This document shows positions 1 through 12,479 of a DNA stretch of 64,000 bases, in pieces; position 1 is the stretch's first letter, and every line of letters starts with the position of its first letter. The notes under the pieces were generated by a model that made no database searches, was not told where the DNA came from, and saw only the letters and a program-made list of their open reading frames with translations. The stretch is from Methylopila capsulata (lineage in GTDB: Bacteria > Pseudomonadota > Alphaproteobacteria > Rhizobiales > Methylopilaceae): positions 372,001 through 436,000 of the forward strand of contig NZ_JAFBCY010000004.1 in assembly GCF_016907975.1 (NCBI RefSeq), written 5' to 3'. The translations under genes were made by a program, and so were the position numbers.

Positions 1-116
1 AGAACCTCTACATGGCCGGCAGCTCGGTGTTCACGACCGGTGGTTGCGCCAACCCGACCCTCACCATCACCGCGCTCGCGATCCGTCTCGCCGAGCGCCT
101 CGCGGTCAGCGCCTGA
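1..116 (+). CDS. GMC family oxidoreductase, C-terminal end only (partial)
   Basis: The first 38 codons readable here (frame beginning at base 3) end in TGA at 114-116. They contain AGSSVFTTGGCANPTLT, the closing signature of the GMC oxidoreductase C-terminal domain, in which the Asn of the NPT triplet is a known active-site position. GMC enzymes are FAD-dependent alcohol, choline or sugar oxidases/dehydrogenases. The substrate cannot be told from this piece. The stop lies 10 bases before the start of the small Tat-signal protein, so the two are probably one operon. The rest of the gene lies upstream of the window. Confidence 0.85.
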   Translation, partial: NLYMAGSSVFTTGGCANPTLTITALAIRLAERLAVSA

Positions 117-126
117 GGAGAGCGAC

Positions 127-543
127 ATGGGCAAGCTCACCCGCCGGGCGCTGCTCGGGACCGCAGCCGTCGGCGCCTTCGGCCTCGTGGCCTACGGCGG
201 CGGCCGCGCGGCCTGCAGCTTCGTGCCGCGCAACCATCCCGACTTCTTCTCGCTGCTCGACATCCCGCCGGAGGGCGCCGTCGCGCGCCGGATCGGGGAG
301 GGGGCGCTCGCCGAGGCGAGCCTCCCCTCGGATTTCGACGCTCTCGCGACGGCGATGAAGCTTCGTCCCCTGATCGCCGAGGCGATCGCGACCGACTGCC
401 CGACGACCCGCCGGCAACTGGTCCAGGATCAGTGCGCGGCGGACTTCGCCGAGGGCCGCTGCGTCGTGATCGACGGCTGGGTGCTGTCCGAGACCGAAGC
501 GAGCCTCTGCGCCGCGAAGCTGCTGCGGCCGTCGATCATCTGA
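127..543 (+). CDS. Small Tat-signal protein of unknown function, next to GMC oxidoreductase
   Basis: 138 residues. I chose ATG 127 because a GGAGAG ribosome site lies just before it and because the product then starts with a twin-arginine signal: residues 1-30 hold KLTRRALLG followed by a hydrophobic Ala/Gly stretch. The mature part has four Cys spaced along its length (near residues 30, 98, 107 and 132), possibly disulfides. Its position 10 bases after a GMC oxidoreductase suggests an exported small partner of that enzyme, as gluconate dehydrogenase has, but I do not recognise the family and this is inference. Its C-terminal half is repeated as a broken copy at 3245-3478 (CVVIDGWVLSETEASLCA versus SVVVEGWVLSEVEASLCA). 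Confidence 0.75.
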   Translation: MGKLTRRALLGTAAVGAFGLVAYGGGRAACSFVPRNHPDFFSLLDIPPEGAVARRIGEGALAEASLPSDFDALATAMKLRPLIAEAIATDCPTTRRQLVQDQCAADFAEGRCVVIDGWVLSETEASLCAAKLLRPSII

Positions 544-588
544 GCGCGCCCGCGCCGGGATTGCGAAGCACGACTCCGAGCTCCGCCG

Positions 589-2133
589 CTAACTGAAGAC
601 CCCGATGAACTGCAGCAGTTGGGTCATCGAGGCGATGCCGGCGGGCGAGGAGGGCGCGCCGGCCAGCGGCGCCGCTCGGGCCTCGACCTGCAGATCGAAC
701 TCGGCGTTCTGGATCTCGTCGAGCGATCCCAGAATCGTCTCCGCGACGATCAGCCCGCCGACCGCGCCGAGCTGGCGGTCCGCCGTGTAGAGGCCGGCTT
801 CGCGGAGGATGTAGTACCAGAGCGGCGTGGCCCAGACGAGCGAGGGCGCGAGCTGGAGGATCTCGGGAAAGTCGCCGAACTCCGACGGCGGGAACAGCTG
901 GTCGCCGCGGAGGCCCGGAACGAGGCCGCCGTAGATGTCCGTCAGCCGGGCCGCCGCCTCCTGGCCCGAGGGGAGGCCGAAATCCACCCCGCGGCGGATG
1001 TTGCGCTCGGCCAGCGACGCAGGCGGCTCGCCGATCGACGGCGGCGGCAGGCGGAACACCGCCTTGGCCAGCCGGGCGTCCAGCGGCTCGCCGTGCTGGG
1101 CCGTGGGCGTCGGGCTCGGCGCGTCGAAGAACAGCTCCCAGTCCACCACGAAGTCGCCGTCGCTGAGCTTGGCCTTGCCGCGGAGGTCGCGGCCCGGCGC
1201 GAACAGCGGCGCGCCGCCGCGGGCGTTCAGCGCATAGCCCTCCCGAAGCTGGCTGTGCCCCAGCCGGAACGCCGCGTGGGCGAACTCGACGGGCATCGCC
1301 AGGAGGTCCGCCACGCCCTCCGACGCGACGGCGCGGAGGTAGGCTTCGCGGGCGCGCGCGATCATCGCCTGATAGAGCGTCGTCTTTGCGGCGAGGGCCG
1401 CGAGAACGGCGTCGATGTGCTCCTTCTGCACGATGTTCGGAAGGTAGTCGTGCAGCACGATCCGCCGGTAGGCGTTCTGCACCTCGAGCTTGGTCGCCTT
1501 GAAGACGTCGCCGCCCGGACGCTTGTCGCTCGCGGACCCCGTCGCGGCGGCGTGGATCGCGTTGTGCAGCCGCTGGAACAGGATGTGGATCTGGACGATG
1601 AGCTTGTTCTCGTCGTTGCGCGGATCGGCGATCAGACGACCGTTGTTGAAGGCCGCCCCGCGCAGGATGTCCACGTCGTTGTCCAGCAGGAACAAGCCGT
1701 CGTCGTCGTAGAGGTCCGGCTGCGCGACGCCGAGCAGGCCGTAGACCGAATCCAGGTCCAGGCTCGGAATGCGGCCGTTGGTGGCGGTCGGCTGGCCGCC
1801 GTCCTCGAGGACGCGCTGGCGCTGGCCGAGCGTGGGGTTCTGGTGGACGAGCGCGAGATCCTGCGCCACGACGCGGAACTCCGTCATGTCGTGGTCGATG
1901 AACTGCCCGAGGAAGGTAAAGCCCGCCGGGTTGCCGGGTTTGCCGCCGGGCGGCGGCGGGACCGGCGTCGGCGCAATCTGCTCGATCGGCCCCCTTGCGC
2001 CCGCGAGCATGGAGAGCGCAAGGGAATCGTAGGCGTGGTTCGACGCTTCGAACAGGCGTCCGAACGGGGACTTGAGCGCGCTCGGCGCCAGGGTCCGCGG
2101 GTCGAGAACCGAAATCCAGCCGTGATGCGCCAT
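589..2133 (-). CDS. Haem peroxidase of the animal-peroxidase superfamily
   Basis: 514 residues, within the usual range for bacterial peroxidases of this superfamily. Three hallmark blocks are visible: GQFIDHDMTEF near residue 80 (distal His), ADPRNDEN near 170 (distal Arg region), followed by HILFQRLHNAIH, and FRLGHSQLREG near 290 (proximal His). No signal peptide is seen, so a cytoplasmic enzyme is likely; physiological substrate unknown. A TTG two codons upstream is possible, but the ATG at 2133 lies six bases after GGGGGAGG, an ideal spacing, so I start there. It lies downstream of mxaG on the same strand with about 240 bases between, too far to assume one operon. Confidence 0.88.
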   Translation of the reverse strand: MAHHGWISVLDPRTLAPSALKSPFGRLFEASNHAYDSLALSMLAGARGPIEQIAPTPVPPPPGGKPGNPAGFTFLGQFIDHDMTEFRVVAQDLALVHQNPTLGQRQRVLEDGGQPTATNGRIPSLDLDSVYGLLGVAQPDLYDDDGLFLLDNDVDILRGAAFNNGRLIADPRNDENKLIVQIHILFQRLHNAIHAAATGSASDKRPGGDVFKATKLEVQNAYRRIVLHDYLPNIVQKEHIDAVLAALAAKTTLYQAMIARAREAYLRAVASEGVADLLAMPVEFAHAAFRLGHSQLREGYALNARGGAPLFAPGRDLRGKAKLSDGDFVVDWELFFDAPSPTPTAQHGEPLDARLAKAVFRLPPPSIGEPPASLAERNIRRGVDFGLPSGQEAAARLTDIYGGLVPGLRGDQLFPPSEFGDFPEILQLAPSLVWATPLWYYILREAGLYTADRQLGAVGGLIVAETILGSLDEIQNAEFDLQVEARAAPLAGAPSSPAGIASMTQLLQFIGVFS

Positions 2134-2284
2134 CTGCAACCTCCCCCTCGCGATGATCGCGCAAAGGTTGCATTTAGCGGCAGACAGTGCAATCAGGAGT
2201 TATACCAATCCCAAGGCGCTCGTTTGGAGCGTGGTCGCTTGTGATCGGCCCGCCGCCTTCTCCGGCGGAGCCGGGCGTCCGCGA

Positions 2285-2324
2285 CGGGGGCGTCGAGCTT
2301 CGTCCGGTGTCGTGGACGCCCCCG
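2285..2324. terminator. GC-rich hairpin between mxaG and the peroxidase gene
   Basis: A perfect 10-bp stem, CGGGGGCGTC at 2285-2294 and GACGCCCCCG at 2315-2324, with a 20-base loop. It sits just after mxaG (minus strand) and before the peroxidase. No T-run follows, so it may be a weak or Rho-assisted terminator or an mRNA-stabilising structure. Confidence 0.4.
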
Positions 2325-2376
2325 CGACGGCGATCGGCCTGCCGGCGTGATCCATCCGGGCCTATCGGCCTTGGCT

Positions 2377-2964
2377 TTACTCTTCGGTCTTGCAGCTCTC
2401 GGGCGCGTCGGCGGCGGGCTTCGGGGCCGGCGTCTTGCCGTCGAAGGGCTTGTAGGCCGCCTTGAGCTCGGCGGTCATCCACTCGCCGGCGTCGTCGGGC
2501 TTGTCCTTGTAGAGGTGGCGCACCCAGGCCATCGTCAGCAGCATCTCGTCGACGTTCATCGAGCCGTACATCGGCCCCATCTGCCCGCTGGCGCCGCCGA
2601 AGATCAGCTCGAACAGGCCCTTGTCGGTCGCGCCCTGCGGGTAGGTCCAGTAGCTGTCGTTGAGGCCGGGTCCGAGCTTGCCCTCACCCTTCTGGCCATG
2701 ACAGCCCGAGCACATGGCGAGGAACAACTGCTCGCCCTTGGCGAGGCAGCTTGGGTTGCCGAGATAGGCGTTCTTGCCCGTCTCCACGAAGGCCTTGAAC
2801 GCCTCCGTGTCCTTGCCCTCCGGCGGGGCGTCGTCGAGGTTCAGGACCTCGCCGGTCACCGCGTTGTTGAAGGTGAGCGCAGCCTTGGCGCCCATGACGC
2901 CCGCCGCGCCGACGGCCGTCGCCAGCGCCGCAGCAACTGCGCCCTTCACCCAAGCTCTTGCCAT
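2377..2964 (-). CDS. mxaG: Cytochrome cL (c-550I), electron acceptor of methanol dehydrogenase
   Basis: 195 residues with an N-terminal signal peptide (about 1-29, Ala-rich). The single haem site is CSGCH at 85-89. Flanking blocks match my memory of Methylobacterium MxaG closely: FNNAVTGEVLNLDDAP, GKLGPGLNDSYWTYPQG, LFELIFGGASGQMGPMYG, and a C-terminal CKxxE. The protein takes electrons from periplasmic PQQ methanol dehydrogenase and passes them to a class I cytochrome c. GGGAGG precedes ATG 2964. The usual partners mxaF, mxaJ and mxaI are not beside it, which is odd. It could instead be an XoxG serving the lanthanide enzyme, but the sequence looks closer to MxaG. Confidence 0.85.
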   Translation of the reverse strand: MARAWVKGAVAAALATAVGAAGVMGAKAALTFNNAVTGEVLNLDDAPPEGKDTEAFKAFVETGKNAYLGNPSCLAKGEQLFLAMCSGCHGQKGEGKLGPGLNDSYWTYPQGATDKGLFELIFGGASGQMGPMYGSMNVDEMLLTMAWVRHLYKDKPDDAGEWMTAELKAAYKPFDGKTPAPKPAADAPESCKTEE

Positions 2965-3060
2965 GTCATTCCTCCCGCGCGTTTCTCAAAAACCGAAAAG
3001 ACGTAAATTATAAAACTCATATTATAAGTATGAGCCGGTATAATGTTCCGTCTATCGCGA
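2965..3060 (-). promoter_or_regulatory. AT-rich upstream region of mxaG with inverted repeat
   Basis: This stretch is much richer in A+T than the rest of the window. It carries an inverted repeat CTCATA (3016-3021) and TATGAG (3029-3034) around TTATAAG, plus several TATAAT-like hexamers readable on the minus strand. It is the natural place for the mxaG promoter and perhaps an operator; which hexamer is used cannot be decided by eye. Confidence 0.4.
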
Positions 3061-3215
3061 CGGCGACACATAAATGACATGGGTGATATTGCGACCGAGG
3101 CGACCCTCACATTGCCGTCAGGGCGTCGTGATCACGCTGATCATCTTGGCGGGGCGGGAGCTGGCCTGCGACCAAAGTCAATGCGGCCGGTTTGTCTGCG
3201 TTCGCCGCCGCGTAA

Positions 3216-3242
3216 CGAAAAAGGGCGCCCGAAGGCGCCCTT
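3216..3242 (-). terminator. Orphan rho-independent terminator (minus strand)
   Basis: On the minus strand the sequence is AAGGGCGCC, loop TTCG, GGCGCCCTT, then TTT. This is a perfect 9-bp stem with a stable UUCG loop and a T-run. No intact minus-strand gene lies upstream that it could end, so it is probably left over from a lost gene, or acts weakly for plus-strand transcription. Confidence 0.6.
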
Positions 3243-3244
3243 GA

Positions 3245-3478
3245 GTGCGCGGCGGCGAGGCCGCCGCCGCTCTCGGCGACCGCCCACTGATCCCCGAGGC
3301 GCTCACGGCCGGGCTGTCCGACGGCGCGCAAAATCTCGGTTCCGGACGCTGCGCCGGCGACTTCGCTCACGGCCGGTCGGTCGTCGTGGAGGGCTGGGTG
3401 CTGTCCGAAGTCGAAGCCAGCCTGTGCGCCGGCCGGAGCCTCGTGGGGCGAGTGGCAGAGGAGCGTGAGCAGGTATAG
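3245..3478 (+). pseudogene. Broken duplicate of the small Tat-signal protein (C-terminal part)
   Basis: An open frame from GTG 3245 gives 77 residues whose central part matches the end of the gene at 127-543: RCAGDFAHGRSVVVEGWV against QCAADFAEGRCVVIDGWV, then LSEVEASLCAG against LSETEASLCAA. Homology begins near RPLI and covers roughly the last 60 residues of the intact copy. The first half, including the Tat signal, is missing. Shared DNA includes the exact run GGCTGGGTGCTGTCCGA. I call it a remnant of duplication or rearrangement. It could in principle be translated, but there is no ribosome site or signal peptide. Confidence 0.7.
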
Positions 3479-3560
3479 GAAAAAAAGCTTATTATAGCTT
3501 GACCACCACGGCGGCCGTGGGTTAGGAAGCGAGTGTTCTTGTTTTGTTCAGGAGGATTCC

Positions 3561-4925
3561 ATGCCTACGGTCACTCAGCTCAACGCCGTCGATTATGGGT
3601 TCACGCCCACCGCTGCGAACCCTTCGGCGGCCTTGTCGAGCGCGATCGCCGCAGCCATTTCGCAAGGAAAGCCGCTCTTCATCGAGCCCGGCTCCTATAC
3701 CGTCAGCAACGTCGTGATTTCCGGTCCGATTGAACTGATCGGCGTGCCCGGCAAGGTGACGTTGAAGATGGCGTCGGGGGCGAAGTCCATCCTCGTTCTG
3801 CAGAATTTCTCGTCCGCGCAGCTTAGCGGCCTGATCTTCGACGGCGCGGATCTCACGCCTTCCGACGCCTATGGCGTCGGCTACCGCGCTCTCTTGGTCG
3901 CTCGGCGAACGACCACTGTCGCATCCCGCATTCGGATCGAACGTTGCGCCTTCCAGGCCGCAGACGGCTACGGGCTCGGCATATCCCAATGCGCCGCGTT
4001 CGTGACGGATAGTCGTTTCTCGAACTTGTACGCGGCGACGGGGGCGTCCAATCACGAAGGCTTCGTCTTCGAAGGAAACCGGATCGGCGCGATGAGAAAC
4101 AATGGCGTCGTCATCTCCCGCGACGCGGGAACGCCTGCGATCACGCGGATTGTCGGCAATCGAGTCGACGGCGTTTCACGCACTCTTCCTGAGTCTACGG
4201 GCTATCAGGGCAACGCCGTGTTGATCGAGTCGGAGTCCAATGTCGTCGTCGCCCAGAATGAGATTCATGATTGTGCGTTCACGGCGGTTCGACTGAACGG
4301 TTGCACGCGCGCCCGAGTCGTCCAGAACCACTGCGATAAACATGGCGAGGTCGCGATCTACATCGAGGGCTTCGGTAACGGACGGCAGATTGCGAATGAC
4401 GGCTACGATGTGGTGGTCAGCGACAACGTGATCAATGACGCCGGAGTGGGCGTCGCGATCGCCAACATCGATTACAGCGGCCGGCTCGGTGTGATCTCGA
4501 ATAATATAATCCGGCGCATTTCCAAACGTACCGTAGCTGCGGGAACGCCAAACCAGTACACCTCACCCGGCAAGGCGATCGCGGTGGAGACCTGCGCGCT
4601 TATTGCGAACAACTTCGTGGAGAATGCCTTCCAGGCGATCGACGTCTCCGCGGGCTCTTACACGCAGGACAGCGTCGTCATCGGCAACGTCCTGCGCCAG
4701 ACGACGCTCGCGATGGGCGTTTCGACGGTCAACGGGGCCAAAGACGTGCTGGTCGCCGACAACCTCGCGGCCGGCTTCGCCTCGGTCGCGTCGGGCGGCG
4801 GCGCTTTGCGACAGATGAACGCTGCGGGGACCATCACTGGAACGACCGACCTCGCATCATTCAGCGAAAGCACTGGGACCGCGAATCTTCGCGTAGAAGG
4901 CGTCGTCAGCCGCGCCAGCCTCTGA
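3561..4925 (+). CDS. Right-handed beta-helix repeat protein (TIGR03808-like), lacking a Tat signal
   Basis: 454 residues after a strong AGGAGGA ribosome site. Residues 35-420 are a chain of short repeats with N-x-I/V steps (GNRIGAM, QNEIHDC, DNVINDA, NNIIRRI, GNVLRQT), typical of a parallel beta-helix. Blocks such as CAFTAVRLNGC, GEVAIYIEGFG and NIDYSGRLGVISNNIIR fit the family I know as TIGR03808, Tat-exported repeat proteins of Hyphomicrobiales. This copy starts MPTVTQLNAVDYGF, with no twin-arginine signal, so its location is uncertain. A surface-binding or carbohydrate-active role is only a guess. Base composition is visibly less GC-rich than neighbouring genes and codon choice is more relaxed, so recent acquisition is possible. 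Confidence 0.75.
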   Translation: MPTVTQLNAVDYGFTPTAANPSAALSSAIAAAISQGKPLFIEPGSYTVSNVVISGPIELIGVPGKVTLKMASGAKSILVLQNFSSAQLSGLIFDGADLTPSDAYGVGYRALLVARRTTTVASRIRIERCAFQAADGYGLGISQCAAFVTDSRFSNLYAATGASNHEGFVFEGNRIGAMRNNGVVISRDAGTPAITRIVGNRVDGVSRTLPESTGYQGNAVLIESESNVVVAQNEIHDCAFTAVRLNGCTRARVVQNHCDKHGEVAIYIEGFGNGRQIANDGYDVVVSDNVINDAGVGVAIANIDYSGRLGVISNNIIRRISKRTVAAGTPNQYTSPGKAIAVETCALIANNFVENAFQAIDVSAGSYTQDSVVIGNVLRQTTLAMGVSTVNGAKDVLVADNLAAGFASVASGGGALRQMNAAGTITGTTDLASFSESTGTANLRVEGVVSRASL

Positions 4926-4950
4926 TGAGGCTTTCAAGATCGTCATAGAA

Positions 4951-4977
4951 CAAAAAGGGGCGCCTTTCGGCGCCCCT
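4951..4977 (-). terminator. Rho-independent terminator of glnA
   Basis: On the minus strand AGGGGCGCC, loop GAAA, GGCGCCCCT is followed by a T-run. It lies 32 bases after the glnA stop. It also separates glnA from the convergent beta-helix gene. Confidence 0.85.
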
Positions 4978-5008
4978 GCAGTCGGCTTTCCGGTTCGGAA
5001 GGAACGTC

Positions 5009-6424
5009 TCAGGCCGAGTAGTACATATCGAACTCGACCGGGTGCGGCGTGTGCTCGAACCGGATGACCTCCTTCATCTTCAGCTCGATGAAGCTGTCGA
5101 TCTGGTCGTCCGTGAACACGTTGCCCTTCTTGAGGAACTCGCGGTCCTTGTCGAGGTTCTGCAGCGCCTCGCGCAGGCTGGCGGAGACGGTCGGGATCTT
5201 CTTCAGCTCGCGCGGCGGCAGGTCGTAGAGATCCTTGTCCATGGCCGGGCCCGGATCGATCTTGTTGGTGATGCCGTCGAGGCCGGCCATCAGCAGCGCG
5301 GCGAAGGCGAGGTAGGGGTTCGCGGTCGGATCGGGGAAACGGACCTCGACGCGCTTCGCCTTCGGCGAGTTGGTCCACGGGATGCGGCAGGAGGCCGAGC
5401 GGTTGCGCGCGGAGTAGGCCAGCAGCACGGGCGCCTCGAAGCCCGGGACGAGGCGCTTGTAGCTGTTCGTCGACGGGTTGGTGAAGGCGTTCAGCGCCTT
5501 GGCGTGCTTGATGATGCCGCCGATGTACCAGAGGCACTCCTGGCTGAGGCCGGCGTACTTGTCGCCGGCGAACATCGGCTTGCCGTCCTTCCAGATCGAC
5601 TGGTGGACGTGCATGCCCGATCCGTTGTCGCCGTAGACCGGCTTCGGCATGAAGGTCGCCGTCTTGCCGTAGGAATGCGCCACCTGGTGGATGCAGTACT
5701 TGTAGACCTGCAGGTGGTCGGCGATCCGGACGATCTTCTCGAACTTGAGGCCGAGCTCGTGCTGGGCGGAGGCCACCTCATGGTGGTGCTTCTCGACGAC
5801 CGCGCCCATGGCGGCCATCGCGGCCAGCATCTCGCCGCGCATGTCCTGCTCGCTGTCCACCGGCGGCACGGGGAAGTAGCCGCCCTTGGTGCGGACGCGG
5901 TGGCCCATGTTGCCGGTTTCGTAGTCGGTGTCGGAGTTCGTCGGCAGCTCGATCGAGTCGAGCTTGAAGCCGGTGTTGTACGGGGTCGCCGCGAACTTGA
6001 CGTCGTCGAACACGAAGAACTCGGCCTCGGGGCCGAAATAGACGGTGTCGCCGATCCCCAGCGACTGCATGTAGACCTCGGCCTTCTTCACCGTGCCGCG
6101 CGGGTCGCGCTCATAGGGCTCGCCGGTGGTGGGCTCGAGCACGTCGCAGACCACAGACAGCGTGGTGGCGGCGAAGAACGGGTCGAGGCACGCGGTGGCG
6201 ACGTCCGGCATCAGCAGCATGTCGGACTCGTTGATCGCCTTCCAGCCGGCGATCGACGAGCCGTCGAACATCTGGCCTTCGGCGAAGAACTCGTCGTCCA
6301 CCATCGTGATGTCGAAGGTGACGTGCTGCCACTTGCCCTGCGGGTCGGTGAAGCGGAGATCGACGTACTTGACATCGTTCTCTTTGATGAATGCGAGAAT
6401 GTCCTTGGCCGTGGTCATTGCCAT
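5009..6424 (-). CDS. glnA: Glutamine synthetase type I
   Basis: 471 residues, the normal length for dodecameric GSI. It makes glutamine from glutamate, ammonia and ATP. Visible signatures: DGSSIAGW near 54, [10 protein letters not shown] near 131, [17 protein letters not shown] near 267, and NRSASCRIP near 341. Tyr400 in [10 protein letters not shown] is the adenylylation site, so activity is probably controlled by GlnE. I use the first of two ATGs because AAGGAT lies about nine bases before it; the second (residue 3) is also possible. It lies 66 bases after glnB on the same strand, the classic glnBA operon, ending in a terminator at 4951-4977. Confidence 0.97.
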
Positions 6425-6460
6425 TTTGATTATCCTTATCCTTGTTCAGGAGTGGGGCTT

Positions 6461-6480
6461 CGGCCGCTCAGGGGCGGCCG
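6461..6480. other. Hairpin in the glnB-glnA spacer
   Basis: CGGCCGC (6461-6467) pairs with GCGGCCG (6474-6480) around a six-base loop. It lies between glnB and glnA with no T-run. It may slow transcription or mark a processing point that sets different mRNA levels for the two genes. Confidence 0.4.
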
Positions 6481-6490
6481 TATCCAAGGC

Positions 6491-6901
<411 letters not shown>

Positions 6902-6904
6902 CTA

Positions 6905-6921
6905 AGCAGCTAGCGTGCCAG
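6905..6921 (-). promoter_or_regulatory. Sigma-54 (RpoN) promoter of glnB-glnA
   Basis: The minus strand reads CTGGCACGCTAGCTGCTT. The -24 GG (6919, 6918) and the -12 GC (6907, 6906) are separated by exactly ten bases, and the TGGCACG half is a perfect consensus. This implies NtrC/RpoN-controlled transcription starting near 6894, about 65 bases before the GTG of glnB. I saw no clear NtrC dyad upstream. Confidence 0.8.
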
Positions 6922-7109
6922 TCTTCCGCCGTCGGCGAAACCTCTGCGTCCGCCGACTGTTTGATAGATAGGTCGAGCCCCCGAATTGGCAGCCGCCCGA
7001 TGTATGATCTAAAAATAGGCAAAATGCTTAATAAAAAGGCGATTAAATCCGCGCCGGCATCGCGTGGCAGCGTGAGAATTGTGCAGAGTCTCCCCGGCGG
7101 GGCTCGGTG

Positions 7110-8588
7110 ATGACGCTGGAGCTGCTGTCGACCACGGAGATGGCCGACGCAGACCGCCGTGCGCCCGCCGCCGGCGCGCCGGCGGAGGCGCTGATGGAGG
7201 CCGCGGGCCGCGCCGTTGCGGACGCCGCGCTCGATCTCTGGCCGCTCGCCCGCCGCGTCGTCGTCATGGCGGGACCCGGAAACAACGGCGGCGACGGCTA
7301 CGTCGCGGCGCGCCTGCTGGCCGCGCGCGGCCTTGAGGTCGCGGTCGCGGCGCTCGTTCCGCGCGAGCGGCTAAAGGGCGACGCGGCGGCGGCTGCCGGC
7401 CGCTGGGAAGGGCCGGTGGTCCCGCTCGCCGAGGCGGAGTTTTCGGGCGCCGACGTCGTGATCGACGCGCTCTTCGGCGCCGGCCTGTCGCGAGCGCTCG
7501 ACGGCGCCGCCGCGAACGCGGTCGAGCGGCTCCGCACGGCGGCGGTCCCGACGCTCGCCGTGGACGTGCCGAGCGGCCTCGACGGGGACACGGGGCGACC
7601 GGCGGGGCAGGGCGCCGTGGTCCGGGCGGGCGCCACCGTCACCTTCGTCCGCCTCAAGCCGGGCCACGTGCTCTATCCCGGCCGCGCGCTGTGCGGCCGC
7701 CTCGTGCTCGCCGACATCGGCATGCCGGAGCGCGTGGTCGAGAGCGTCGGCGCCACCGTGTTCCTCAACCGTCCGGCGCTGTGGCTGGCCGCGCTGCCGC
7801 GTCCCGAGCCTGAAGGCCACAAATACGGCCGCGGCCACTGCGTGGTGTGGACCGGCCCCGAATTCGCGACCGGCGCGGCACGGCTGTCGGCGGTCGCGGC
7901 GCTGAGGGCGGGAGCGGGCGCGGTGACGCTGATCGGCCCGCCCTCCGCGCTCCGAATCCATGCCGCGCACGTCACCGCCGTCATGCTGCGGCCGGCCGAC
8001 GACGCCGCTGGATTCGCCGCCGCGGTCGCCCTGCGCCGGACCGACGCGGCGGTCGTGGGGCCTGGGGCGGGCGAGGGCGTGGAGGAAATCGTCCGCCGGG
8101 CGCTCGATCTCGCCGGTGCGGTCGTGCTCGACGCCGACGCCCTCACCGCCTTTGCGGGGCGGCCCGAAGACCTCGCGGCGGCGATCGCCGCGCGACCCGA
8201 CCGGCCGGTGGTCGTCACCCCGCACGAGGGCGAGTTTGGCCGGCTGTTCGGCGACGCGGCTCCCTCGGGATCGAAGCTCGAGCGGGCGCGCGAAGCGGCG
8301 GTCCGGCTCGGCGCCGTGGTGGCGCTCAAGGGGCCGGACACGGTGGTCGCCTCGCTCGACGGGCGGGCCGCGATCGCCGACAACGCGCCGCCGTACCTCG
8401 CCACCGCCGGCGCCGGCGACGTGCTCGCGGGGATCGCGGCCGGCCTGCTCGCACAGCGCACGCCCGCCTTCGAGGCGGCGGCGGCGGCGGTCTGGATCCA
8501 CGGCGAGGCGGCCAAGGCGATCGGCCGCGGGCTCATCGCCGACGATCTGCCGGGAGCGCTGCCGGCCGTCCTTGCGGCGCTAGACTGA
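7110..8588 (+). CDS. nnr: Bifunctional NAD(P)HX epimerase and ADP-dependent dehydratase
   Basis: 492 residues, the usual fused form. The N-terminal epimerase (YjeF_N, about 1-205) shows AGPGNNGGDGYVAARL near 54 and AVDVPSGLDGD. The C-terminal ribokinase-like dehydratase (about 230-492) shows HKYGRGHCVV, VVVTPHEGEFGRLFG and the catalytic loop ATAGAGDVLAGIAAG. Together they repair hydrated NADH and NADPH. GTG at 7107 directly precedes ATG 7110; I use ATG. It is transcribed away from glnB, with a shared 280-base upstream region. In many proteobacteria the gene lies beside glnB, which fits. Confidence 0.95.
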   Translation: MTLELLSTTEMADADRRAPAAGAPAEALMEAAGRAVADAALDLWPLARRVVVMAGPGNNGGDGYVAARLLAARGLEVAVAALVPRERLKGDAAAAAGRWEGPVVPLAEAEFSGADVVIDALFGAGLSRALDGAAANAVERLRTAAVPTLAVDVPSGLDGDTGRPAGQGAVVRAGATVTFVRLKPGHVLYPGRALCGRLVLADIGMPERVVESVGATVFLNRPALWLAALPRPEPEGHKYGRGHCVVWTGPEFATGAARLSAVAALRAGAGAVTLIGPPSALRIHAAHVTAVMLRPADDAAGFAAAVALRRTDAAVVGPGAGEGVEEIVRRALDLAGAVVLDADALTAFAGRPEDLAAAIAARPDRPVVVTPHEGEFGRLFGDAAPSGSKLERAREAAVRLGAVVALKGPDTVVASLDGRAAIADNAPPYLATAGAGDVLAGIAAGLLAQRTPAFEAAAAAVWIHGEAAKAIGRGLIADDLPGALPAVLAALD

Positions 8589-8706
8589 TCAGGCTGTGGG
8601 GGAAGGGCGACGCGCGCATGTCAGTTTTTTGCTGCGCGCGGCCTCGGCCATGATATAGAGCGTCCGCTTTCGCGCCGGTCCCGGCGCGAGGAGCAATGCG
8701 CCCGGC

Positions 8707-8791
8707 GCGGGCGTGGTGGAACTGGTAGACACGCGGGATTTAGGTTCCCGTGGCGCAAGCCGTGGGGGTTCGAGCCCCTCCGCCCGCACCA
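8707..8791 (+). tRNA. tRNA-Leu (anticodon TAG)
   Basis: 85 bases including an encoded CCA. The acceptor arms GCGGGCG and CGCCCGC pair perfectly. The anticodon stem CGGGA/TCCCG holds the loop TTTAGGT, giving TAG, which reads CTA/CTN leucine codons. There is a long variable arm (TGGCGCAAGCCG), as expected for class II tRNA-Leu, and a T loop TTCGAGC. Confidence 0.97.
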
Positions 8792-8893
8792 AGCCTGTGA
8801 CCGCAAGCCCGCCGCCATCCGAGACACAAGGACCGCGGTCGCGCGCAGCTCGAAAAGCGCGCCGCCCGCGGAGGATTCGAAGAGACCACTCTC

Positions 8894-10270
8894 ATGCAGG
8901 TGACGCAAACCCTCGACGAGGGCCTGAAGCGCGAGTTCAAGATCGTCGTGCCGGCGCAGGATCTCGACGCCCGCCTGATCGAGCGGCTCACGAGCCTCAA
9001 GGACCGTGTCAACATCAACGGCTTCCGCAAGGGCAAGGTGCCGCTCGCGCACCTCAAGAAGCTCTATGGCAAGTCGGTGATGGCGGAGGTCGTCGAGCAG
9101 GCGGTCGCAGACGCCAACCGCAAGATCGTCGACGACAACGGCCTGAAGCTCGCGATGCAGCCGAAGGTCAACTTCCCCGAGGACAAGGACGAGGTCGAGG
9201 GCGTGCTCTCGGGCAAGTCCGATCTCTCCCTCGGCGTCGAGCTCGAGGTGCTGCCGACGTTCGAGGTCAAGGACGTCTCGGAGCTCAAGCTCGAGAAGCT
9301 CGTGGCCGAGGTCGAGGACGCCGAGGTCGACGAGGCGGTCGAGCGCATCGCCAAGCAGAATCAGTCCTTCACGCCCAAGGGCGAGGGCGAGGCCGCCGCT
9401 GACGGCGACCGCGTCACCATCGACTTCGTCGGCACGATCGACGGCGAGGCCTTCGAGGGCGGCTCGGCGACCGACCAGCCGCTCACGATCGGCTCCAACA
9501 CCTTCATCCCGGGCTTCGAAGAGCAGCTCGTCGGCGTGAAGACCGGCGACGAGACGGTTGTGAAGGTGAGCTTCCCCGAGGCCTACGGCGCGGCGAACCT
9601 CGCCGGCAAGGCGGCGGAATTCGCCGTCACGGTGAAGGGAATCGAAGCGCCGGGCGCGCTGTCAATCGACGACGAGCTCGCCAAGGGCATGGGCTTCGAG
9701 GACGTCGCCGGCCTCAAGGACGCCGTCCGCACCCAGATCTCGACCGAGTACGCCCGCGTCTCGCGCCAGCGCGTGAAGCGCGAGCTGCTCGACGCGCTCG
9801 ACGGCCAGTACGATTTCGCGCTGCCGCCCACGCTGGTGGAGCAGGAGTTCGAGAACGTGTGGCGCCAGGTCGAGCAGGATCTCGCCCGCTCCGGCCGCAC
9901 CTTCGCGGACGAGGAGACCACCGAGGACGAGGCCAAGGCCGAGTACCGCAAGATCGCCGAGCGCCGCGTGCGCCTTGGCCTGGTCCTTGCGGAAATCGGG
10001 GAGACGCACGAAGTCAAGGTCACCGACGACGAGGTCACCCGCGCGCTTGTCGAGCGGGCCCGGCAGTTCCCGGGCCAGGAGCAGCAGGTGTGGGACTTCT
10101 ACCGTCAGCGTCCGGAAGCTCTGGCCGAGCTGCGCGCCCCGATCTTCGAGGATAAGGTCGTCGACCTGGTGCTCGAGAAGGCGTCGGTCGCCGAGCGCAA
10201 GGTCGGCAAGGACGAGCTCCTCGCCGAGCCGGACGCGGACGAGACGAAGACCGACCAGCCGTCGGCTTGA
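8894..10270 (+). CDS. tig: Trigger factor, ribosome-bound chaperone and prolyl isomerase
   Basis: 458 residues. The ribosome-binding signature GFRKGK is at 43-48. A central FKBP-type isomerase domain (about 160-245; GDRVTIDFVGTIDGEAFEGG) is followed by the helical chaperone arms. It folds nascent chains at the ribosome exit. Its place directly before clpP-clpX-lon is the classic bacterial order. The acidic C-terminus (DADETKTD) is ordinary for the family. Confidence 0.97.
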   Translation: MQVTQTLDEGLKREFKIVVPAQDLDARLIERLTSLKDRVNINGFRKGKVPLAHLKKLYGKSVMAEVVEQAVADANRKIVDDNGLKLAMQPKVNFPEDKDEVEGVLSGKSDLSLGVELEVLPTFEVKDVSELKLEKLVAEVEDAEVDEAVERIAKQNQSFTPKGEGEAAADGDRVTIDFVGTIDGEAFEGGSATDQPLTIGSNTFIPGFEEQLVGVKTGDETVVKVSFPEAYGAANLAGKAAEFAVTVKGIEAPGALSIDDELAKGMGFEDVAGLKDAVRTQISTEYARVSRQRVKRELLDALDGQYDFALPPTLVEQEFENVWRQVEQDLARSGRTFADEETTEDEAKAEYRKIAERRVRLGLVLAEIGETHEVKVTDDEVTRALVERARQFPGQEQQVWDFYRQRPEALAELRAPIFEDKVVDLVLEKASVAERKVGKDELLAEPDADETKTDQPSA

Positions 10271-10360
10271 CGCAGGCGCCGCAAGCGGCGTCGATAGGGC
10301 GTCCGGCCGCGCTGATTTGCGTGGCCGGCGACCGGCCCCAGTGAGGAAGAGACTTCAGAG

Positions 10361-11002
10361 ATGCGCGATTTTCAGGATCTGACGACGAACTTCCTCATCC
10401 CGATGGTGATCGAGCAGACCAACCGCGGCGAGCGGTCGTTCGACATCTACTCCCGCCTGCTCAAAGAGCGCATCATCTTCCTTTCCGGCCCCTTCAACGA
10501 CGACATGGCGGCGGTGATCTGCGCCCAGCTGCTGTTTCTCGAGGCCGAGAATCCGAAGAAGGAGATCGCGCTCTACATCAATTCGCCGGGAGGCGTCGTC
10601 ACCTCCGGCCTCGCGATCTACGACACCATGCAGTACATCCGGCCCGCGGTCGCGACCCTCTGCATGGGCCAGGCCGCCTCGATGGGCTCGTTCATCCTGA
10701 TGGCCGGCGAGCAGGGCATGCGCGCCGCGCTGCCGAACGCCCGCATCCTCGTGCACCAGCCGTCGGGCGGCTTCCAGGGCCAGGCCTCGGACATCGAGCG
10801 CCACGCCGAGGACATCGTGAAGATCAAGCGTCGGCTGAACGAGATCTACGTCAAGCACACCGGCCGCTCCTACGAGGAGATCGAGCGCACGCTCGACCGC
10901 GACACCATGCTGTCGGCGGAGCAGGCGCGCGACTTCGGGCTGATCGATCAGGTGTTCGAGAAGCGCCAGGTCGAGGGCGAGCCGGATCCGAAGCCGGCGT
11001 GA
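10361..11002 (+). CDS. clpP: ATP-dependent Clp protease proteolytic subunit
   Basis: 213 residues. The catalytic triad is visible: Ser107 in GQAASMGS, His132 in VHQPSGG, Asp181 in LDRDTM. It forms a tetradecameric chamber and works with ClpX (next gene) and probably ClpA. A GAGGAAGAG ribosome site precedes ATG 10361. It is 90 bases after tig and about 210 bases before clpX, so clpX may also have its own promoter. Together with SspB and tmRNA, both present in this window, it completes the tag-degradation route. Confidence 0.98.
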
Positions 11003-11020
11003 CCCTAAAGGCGCGGGCGG

Positions 11021-11058
11021 GCCGCAACCGAGACGCCGGGCGCGTGTGCGGTTGCGGC
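11021..11058 (+). terminator. Hairpin in the clpP-clpX spacer
   Basis: GCCGCAACCG (11021-11030) pairs perfectly with CGGTTGCGGC (11049-11058); the loop is 18 bases. There is no T-run. It may attenuate read-through from clpP into clpX or protect mRNA ends. Confidence 0.4.
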
Positions 11059-11213
11059 GCCGCCGCATGAAGCTATCATAACGATCTGCGTTGCGTCGCG
11101 GCGTGACCGTGCCTACGTGACGGCGCCGATTGATTAAGCCCGATCGACGTATGACATTCCGATGAAGCAGCGCGGCGACGGGACGCTGCTTGGGACCCGA
11201 AAGGGGTAAGATG

Positions 11214-12479
<1,266 letters not shown>

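Follow-up and report, generated by a model that had tools for sequence, protein, structure and literature searches.

In homology-facilitated illegitimate recombination, foreign DNA is integrated with one of its sides anchored by homology. Here, we analyzed a window of 64,000 bp from the genome of Methylopila capsulata (G000:C4:372001-436000, where G000 denotes the genome studied here). Near its left end, a small gene that we call tatS is followed by a haem peroxidase gene, the cytochrome cL gene mxaG, a partial second tatS, a gene for a right-handed beta-helix protein, and glnA. The piece 3271–5008, which reaches from the partial tatS to the end of glnA, is probably foreign chromosomal DNA from a congener with the order tatS - beta-helix gene - glnA, as found in Hansschlegelia quercus.

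A comparable arrangement is described for the type VI clusters of Vibrio cholerae. In that report (PMC5361080), a horizontally acquired module is inserted with a resident element shifted behind it, and the authors suggest this recombination route. The M. capsulata locus is similar in that an acquired module appears to have displaced a resident element. It differs in what was displaced, here a terminator, and in the origin of the gene fragment, which we attribute to the donor and not to the recipient.

The right-hand insert and its counterpart in Hansschlegelia quercus

The features of the locus are listed in Table 1. The names glnA, GMC oxidoreductase, hflX, and acyltransferase-like were given by eye and from the initial annotation, without a family search.

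The two nearest genomes, G007 and G011, have the order GMC oxidoreductase - tatS - mxaG - terminator - glnA, with mxaG and glnA on the minus strand, and both (2/2) are without a broken tatS copy and without a beta-helix gene at this locus. G007 matches the window with 93% identity over 5.8 kb up to position 543, after which 544–2383 is replaced by 49 bp. Further right, 2384–3270 aligns at 95%, 3271–5010 is replaced by 15 bp, and from 5011 the match continues at 94.9% over 6 kb. G011 aligns in three blocks (92, 90, and 92%), has 45 and 11 bp in the two gaps, and resumes at 2379 and 5008. A sequence of 14 bp, GCGATCGATCGGCC, is common to G007 and G011 at their junction and is missing there in the window genome. 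Compared with its sisters, the window genome has two separate extra pieces, 544–2383 and approximately 3271–5008. The DNA at about 2384–3270, with mxaG, the AT-rich strip, and the terminator, is present in G007 and G011 and hence resident; in its non-coding part (2990–3270), the identity amounts to 94.8% with G007 and 80.7% with G011. The initial annotation had proposed that the peroxidase-mxaG segment was inserted. An insertion did happen, but insertion of 589–3244 as one unit is rejected, as only the peroxidase part is extra and mxaG, strip, and terminator are resident in the sisters.

The right-hand insert opens with the truncated 3' end of a tatS, continues with the beta-helix gene and then a second glnA terminator, and ends at the glnA stop codon. 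The second tatS copy thus appears to be the left edge of an insert that takes in the beta-helix gene and stops where glnA ends.

Table 1 Features of the tatS–glnA region (positions in the window)
Feature	Position	Strand	Remarks
tatS (our label), resident intact copy	127–543	+	138 aa; twin-arginine-like N-terminus by eye
Haem peroxidase module (gene 589–2139, minus strand, with flanks)	544–2383	-	PF03098 An_peroxidase, E = 5.3e-11; absent from sisters, own borders
Second mxaG (cytochrome cL)	2377–2964	-	TIGR03872, 193.1 bits (cut-off 147.8); same place in G007, G011, and G005
Intergenic DNA with the AT-rich strip upstream of mxaG, a terminator, and a short GC-rich hairpin	2965–3270	.	Resident; in sisters runs almost straight into the glnA stop
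Displaced resident glnA terminator ("orphan" terminator)	3221–3242	-	9-bp stem and T tract; -18.5 kcal/mol, z = -4.8
Insert absent from G007 and G011	3271–5008	+	15 and 11 bp in its place; borders good to about 10 bases
Second tatS 3' end, 5'-truncated, apparently frameshifted	3271–3478	+	DNA alignments, genome search, frame inspection
TIGR03808-like right-handed beta-helix protein	3561–4925	+	454 aa; TIGR03808, 147.3 bits (cut-off 120); PF13229, E = 8.1e-11
Second glnA terminator, interpreted as part of the incoming DNA	4956–4977	-	-21.3 kcal/mol, z = -4.4; 32 bp from glnA stop
glnA	5009–6424	-	Resident; 97.9% identity to G007, 96.0% to G011, 86.7% to G003

H. quercus order: The locus of H. 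quercus strain Dub (G003; NZ_SIUB01000002.1, L048, taken to be G003:C8) consists of an intact tatS, the orthologous beta-helix gene, a terminator, and glnA. With tatS leading directly to the beta-helix gene, it represents the simpler order without 589–3244 for which the initial annotation suggested checking relatives. The distance between a tatS motif common to both and the glnA stop is 1728 bp in the window genome and 1699 bp in H. quercus. The stretch between the stop codons of the beta-helix gene and glnA aligns to that of H. quercus with a score of 39, above the maximum of 36 in 1000 shuffles, by virtue of its terminator. Starting from the GMC gene, the succession GMC - tatS - beta-helix gene - terminator - glnA is the same in both species, in equal orientation and with similar spacing. 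H. quercus differs in its intact tatS and in having neither mxaG nor the peroxidase gene, and it is too divergent to be the direct donor.

Beta-helix gene: The encoded protein is 83% identical to that of H. quercus and about 30–34% identical to a genus paralogue. Among 18 genomes of the family, only the window genome and H. quercus have it at ≥83%, and among 397 genomes of the order, matches below 1e-60 are limited to these two and G302 (34% identity). At codon positions 1, 2, and 3, the identity to H. quercus is 85.5, 93.0, and 50.4%, respectively, which suggests that the gene is under purifying selection and apparently functional. No Tat signal is found at the N-terminus: the profile match begins at position 39, and the protein and its H. 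quercus orthologue start with MPTVTQLNA, without an RR motif. Because the score passes the cut-off but the Tat signal is missing, we name the protein TIGR03808-like only. The paralogue is a separate gene at G000:C3:229930-231066 and also occurs in 12 other genus members, in G008 as two pieces.

Partial tatS copy: tatS stands after the GMC oxidoreductase gene and has orthologues at the same place in G007 (95.7% identity) and G011 (94.2%); against Pfam and NCBIfam, it gave no family above cut-off. The repeat of its end, as initially annotated, is real. An ungapped repeat of 82 nt (433–514 and 3350–3431) shows 78% identity, and the exact 17-base match reported before lies at 475–491 and 3392–3408. 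The local alignment of tatS and remnant has a score of 102, which is above all 500 shuffles (mean 24.4, standard deviation 3.2, maximum 37). When the whole genome was searched with tatS DNA, it returned its own copy, the second place at about 3271–3442 (E = 2.7e-16, 74% over 151 nt), and a marginal third match of 30 bases elsewhere (E = 7.8e-4). At the protein level, tatS residues 73–133 match the second copy with 51%; approximately the first 72 of the 138 tatS codons are missing from the remnant. The previously given extent of 3245–3478 has to be shortened, as homology begins near 3271–3280 and 3245–3270 is resident in both sisters. To call the frame broken was fair in that, by eye, the middle of the remnant fits tatS in the next frame only (CPTARKISVPDAA vs CPTTRRQLVQDQC) and two compensating frameshifts seem to be present, but the frame 3260–3478 is open with zero internal stops. 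We read this copy as a dead remnant rather than a working gene. Among 60 genomes searched, there are 13 tatS-bearing relatives (tatS lies beside glnA in 10 of them), and the second copy is present in none of the 13; relatives with both copies, which would have spoken against the initial annotation, were thus not found among them.

Doubled terminator: The hairpin at 3221–3242 is separated from the glnA stop by 1768 bp, whereas the same hairpin is 43 bp from it in G007 and 42 bp in G011. The gap between tatS and glnA was surveyed in 11 of 13 genus members (G004 and G008 had no tatS match), its length being counted from where the tatS match ends. It contains two glnA-type terminators in the window genome, one in nine genomes, and none by the pattern used in G009; in the 10 genomes having one, the hairpin nearest to glnA is 26–48 bp from the stop. 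The terminator at 3221–3242, described as an orphan in the initial annotation, serves no neighboring gene in the window genome. It is the resident glnA terminator, as its position in G007 and G011 indicates. Its isolation is explained by the insert, which parted it from glnA and whose own terminator replaced it.

Proposed route of entry and alternative explanations

The empty site in two sisters, the order and length shared with H. quercus, the doubled terminator in one of 11 genomes, and the conserved codon positions 1 and 2 are observed. From these, we infer a gain by transfer as well as its mechanism. The point of entry would have been the interval that separates the resident terminator of glnA from the likewise resident glnA stop codon. 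Besides approximately the last half of the donor tatS, the piece would have delivered the beta-helix gene and a glnA terminator from the donor, so that the resident terminator came to lie 1.8 kb away from glnA. Homology in glnA may have anchored the right end, and the left end would have been closed by illegitimate joining. At the left border, the resident GC-rich hairpin is joined to the middle of a tatS gene with little or no homology. The right border abuts the glnA stop, with the glnA-type terminator of the insert beside it. Homology-facilitated illegitimate recombination is matched in that one border is at the conserved glnA, the other joins unrelated sequence, and a short resident stretch is missing; the locus differs in that zero donor bases, and hence no donor tract, were seen inside glnA. 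No mobile-element gene was recognized by eye in the list of open reading frames (ORFs), and no tRNA gene is found at the insert borders, the only one in 1–12000 being tRNA-Leu at 8707–8791. The event is probably a fresh instance of known, ordinary gene transfer in which both borders are clearly readable.

Direction of change: An rpoB tree was built with 15 of 18 genomes, all rows being on one strand (G016 and G017 had no rpoB match; in G008, it was in two pieces). G004, G013, G014, and G015 were coded as being without the arrangement, as they have at most a distant paralogue (30–33%), the gap itself being unseen. The tree places the window genome with G007 and G011 (100/100), G005 and G004 adjacent to them (99/98), and H. 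quercus with G006 (100/99). The beta-helix gene beside glnA demands at least two changes on this tree, and gains in the window genome and in H. quercus would fit. The outgroup G005 has tatS - mxaG - glnA with neither remnant nor beta-helix gene. The order within G000, G007, and G011 received 48/18 from rpoB and was likewise not resolved by the upstream flank. The direction is thus deduced from G005, from the relatives having a single terminator, and from the 14-bp junction of the sisters.

Vertical inheritance: If the ancestor of the genus already had tatS - beta-helix gene - glnA, the remnant and the beta-helix gene would be inherited, and the other lineages would have lost them. The beta-helix genes of the window genome and H. 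quercus have diverged about as far as GMC, hflX, and tatS, which is compatible with such descent, as is a possible clade of G007 and G011. However, losses would be needed in most lineages, as nine of the 11 genomes with tatS beside glnA have no beta-helix gene. The second terminator and the second tatS would be left unexplained, and in both sisters, the displaced terminator would have had to come to lie exactly where glnA needs one. We consider this explanation quite unlikely.

Duplication: Following the initial annotation, 3245–3478 would be a copy of the C-terminal end of the resident tatS, made upon entry of the peroxidase-mxaG segment. For DNA comparisons and trees, 12 of 14 intact tatS genes were used (all but those of G029 and G038). 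With 76.1% over 155 nt and a score of 135, the resident copy belongs to the better DNA matches of the remnant; G002 scored 150, G007 144, G011 128, and H. quercus 81, and the highest percentage was obtained with G030 of another family (80.8% over 151 nt, score 107, with more gaps). In approximately unbiased (AU) tests, a clade of the remnant with the resident copy had a p-AU of 0.052, with G007 and G011 added 0.078, and with H. quercus 0.168. The 19% difference from G011 in non-coding DNA makes fast decay conceivable. Still, the remnant differs from the resident tatS by 24% plus indels, compared with 5% (G007) or 19% (G011) in neutral DNA, and recent copying is therefore unlikely. The remnant is also missing from the sisters that have mxaG and the terminator, and it is followed by a beta-helix gene that adjoins tatS in another species. 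On this divergence and the insert-free sites of the sisters, we judge duplication very unlikely, though the tree test by itself does not reject it (p-AU 0.052). Most likely, the initial annotation was right that the repeat marks an insertion and wrong on which DNA was inserted and on duplication.

Replacement from the left: Exchange of the upstream part of a resident tatS - beta-helix locus for a GMC - tatS - mxaG block of a G007-like strain would suit the border at 3270/3271, which parts DNA shared with G007 from DNA shared with H. quercus, but is hardly credible and was rejected, as the flanks contradict it (glnA with 97.9% and 6 kb downstream with 94.9% are also G007-like, leaving the part shared with H. 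quercus only as an island) and rpoB puts the genome with G007 and G011.

Several results weigh against a transfer from a donor with the H. quercus arrangement. A donor tract was sought in glnA, and the 15 sites differing from both sisters are not clustered at its 3' end. The spacer between remnant and beta-helix gene (3432–3533) matches H. quercus at chance level, 192 of 1000 shuffles being as good. A terminator consensus scan of 1–6500 gave five sites vs 4.5 expected in shuffles; as this is at shuffle level, the evidence for the terminators comes from their 9-bp stems, folding energies, and conservation. The downstream flank (87/95) and the 3' part of tatS (85/84) join G007 and G011 without the window genome, and judged from these three genomes alone, one loss in the ancestor of G007 and G011 is possible. 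The remnant appears to have no affinity to H. quercus tatS, and the best tree joins it weakly with G002 (73/66). The 19% difference from G011 weakens the divergence argument against copying. The GC content at third codon positions (GC3) of the beta-helix gene is 76.7% compared with 92–96% in tatS, peroxidase gene, mxaG, and glnA, but as the H. quercus copy is alike (77.4%), the low value may be intrinsic to this gene and speaks only weakly for transfer. Third-position identity between the window genome and H. quercus in other genes is 57.2% (GMC), 58.4% (hflX), 55.9% (tatS), and 74.3% (glnA). As the divergence of the beta-helix gene resembles that of most of these neighbors, we argue for transfer from place and distribution rather than from exceptional similarity. 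Either the donor had the H. quercus arrangement without being close to H. quercus, or the remnant may be too decayed to tell.

The peroxidase module and mxaG

The peroxidase module was likely a second, separate gain. No match to the peroxidase was found in 17 other genomes of the family. In 60 other genomes, the best match by E value had 41% identity, with short pieces up to 47%. In a second set of 384 other genomes, there were four matches below 1e-30, the best of which (54%) was in G564 from another family of the class. In the sisters, tatS and mxaG are separated by a short GC-rich spacer that by eye looks like a shared terminator; in the window genome, the module stands in its place.

The resident mxaG is the second of the window genome. 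The other one is located at G000:C2:674910-675467 and is 65% identical to it. Two mxaG genes are also present in G004, G005, G007, G008, G011, and G012.

The tatS–glnA gap across the genus

The gap is short in G009 (112 bp) and G002 (199 bp), and in G012, it has 725 bp with no ORF over 72 aa. It contains an acyltransferase-like ORF in G001 and G006 and a repeat-rich ORF in G010, both named by eye. The beta-helix gene is found there in H. quercus, mxaG in G005, G007, and G011, and peroxidase gene, mxaG, remnant, and beta-helix gene in the window genome. It is possible, if on balance doubtful, that the gap is a recurrent cargo site of the genus, with the glnA end and its terminator as a shared anchor for single-gene swaps without a mobile element.

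G001 and G006 have another acyltransferase-like gene ahead of the GMC gene. At L004 9047-12543, an acyltransferase-like gene, the GMC oxidoreductase gene, and tatS follow one another on the same strand, separated by 4 and 10 bases. This suggests that the three form one transcription unit, and tatS could be a small partner of the GMC enzyme.

The biological effect of the proposed transfer would be modest, as one beta-helix protein with unassigned role was gained and, separately, a haem peroxidase. The locus also calls for caution, as a gene end found twice is no proof that the DNA it brackets was inserted; in the present case, the insert is located outside the bracket. If our explanation is true, this is a clean case of a gene moving between related species without a mobile element, with its two borders recognizable from the remnant of the donor's neighboring gene and from the doubled terminator.

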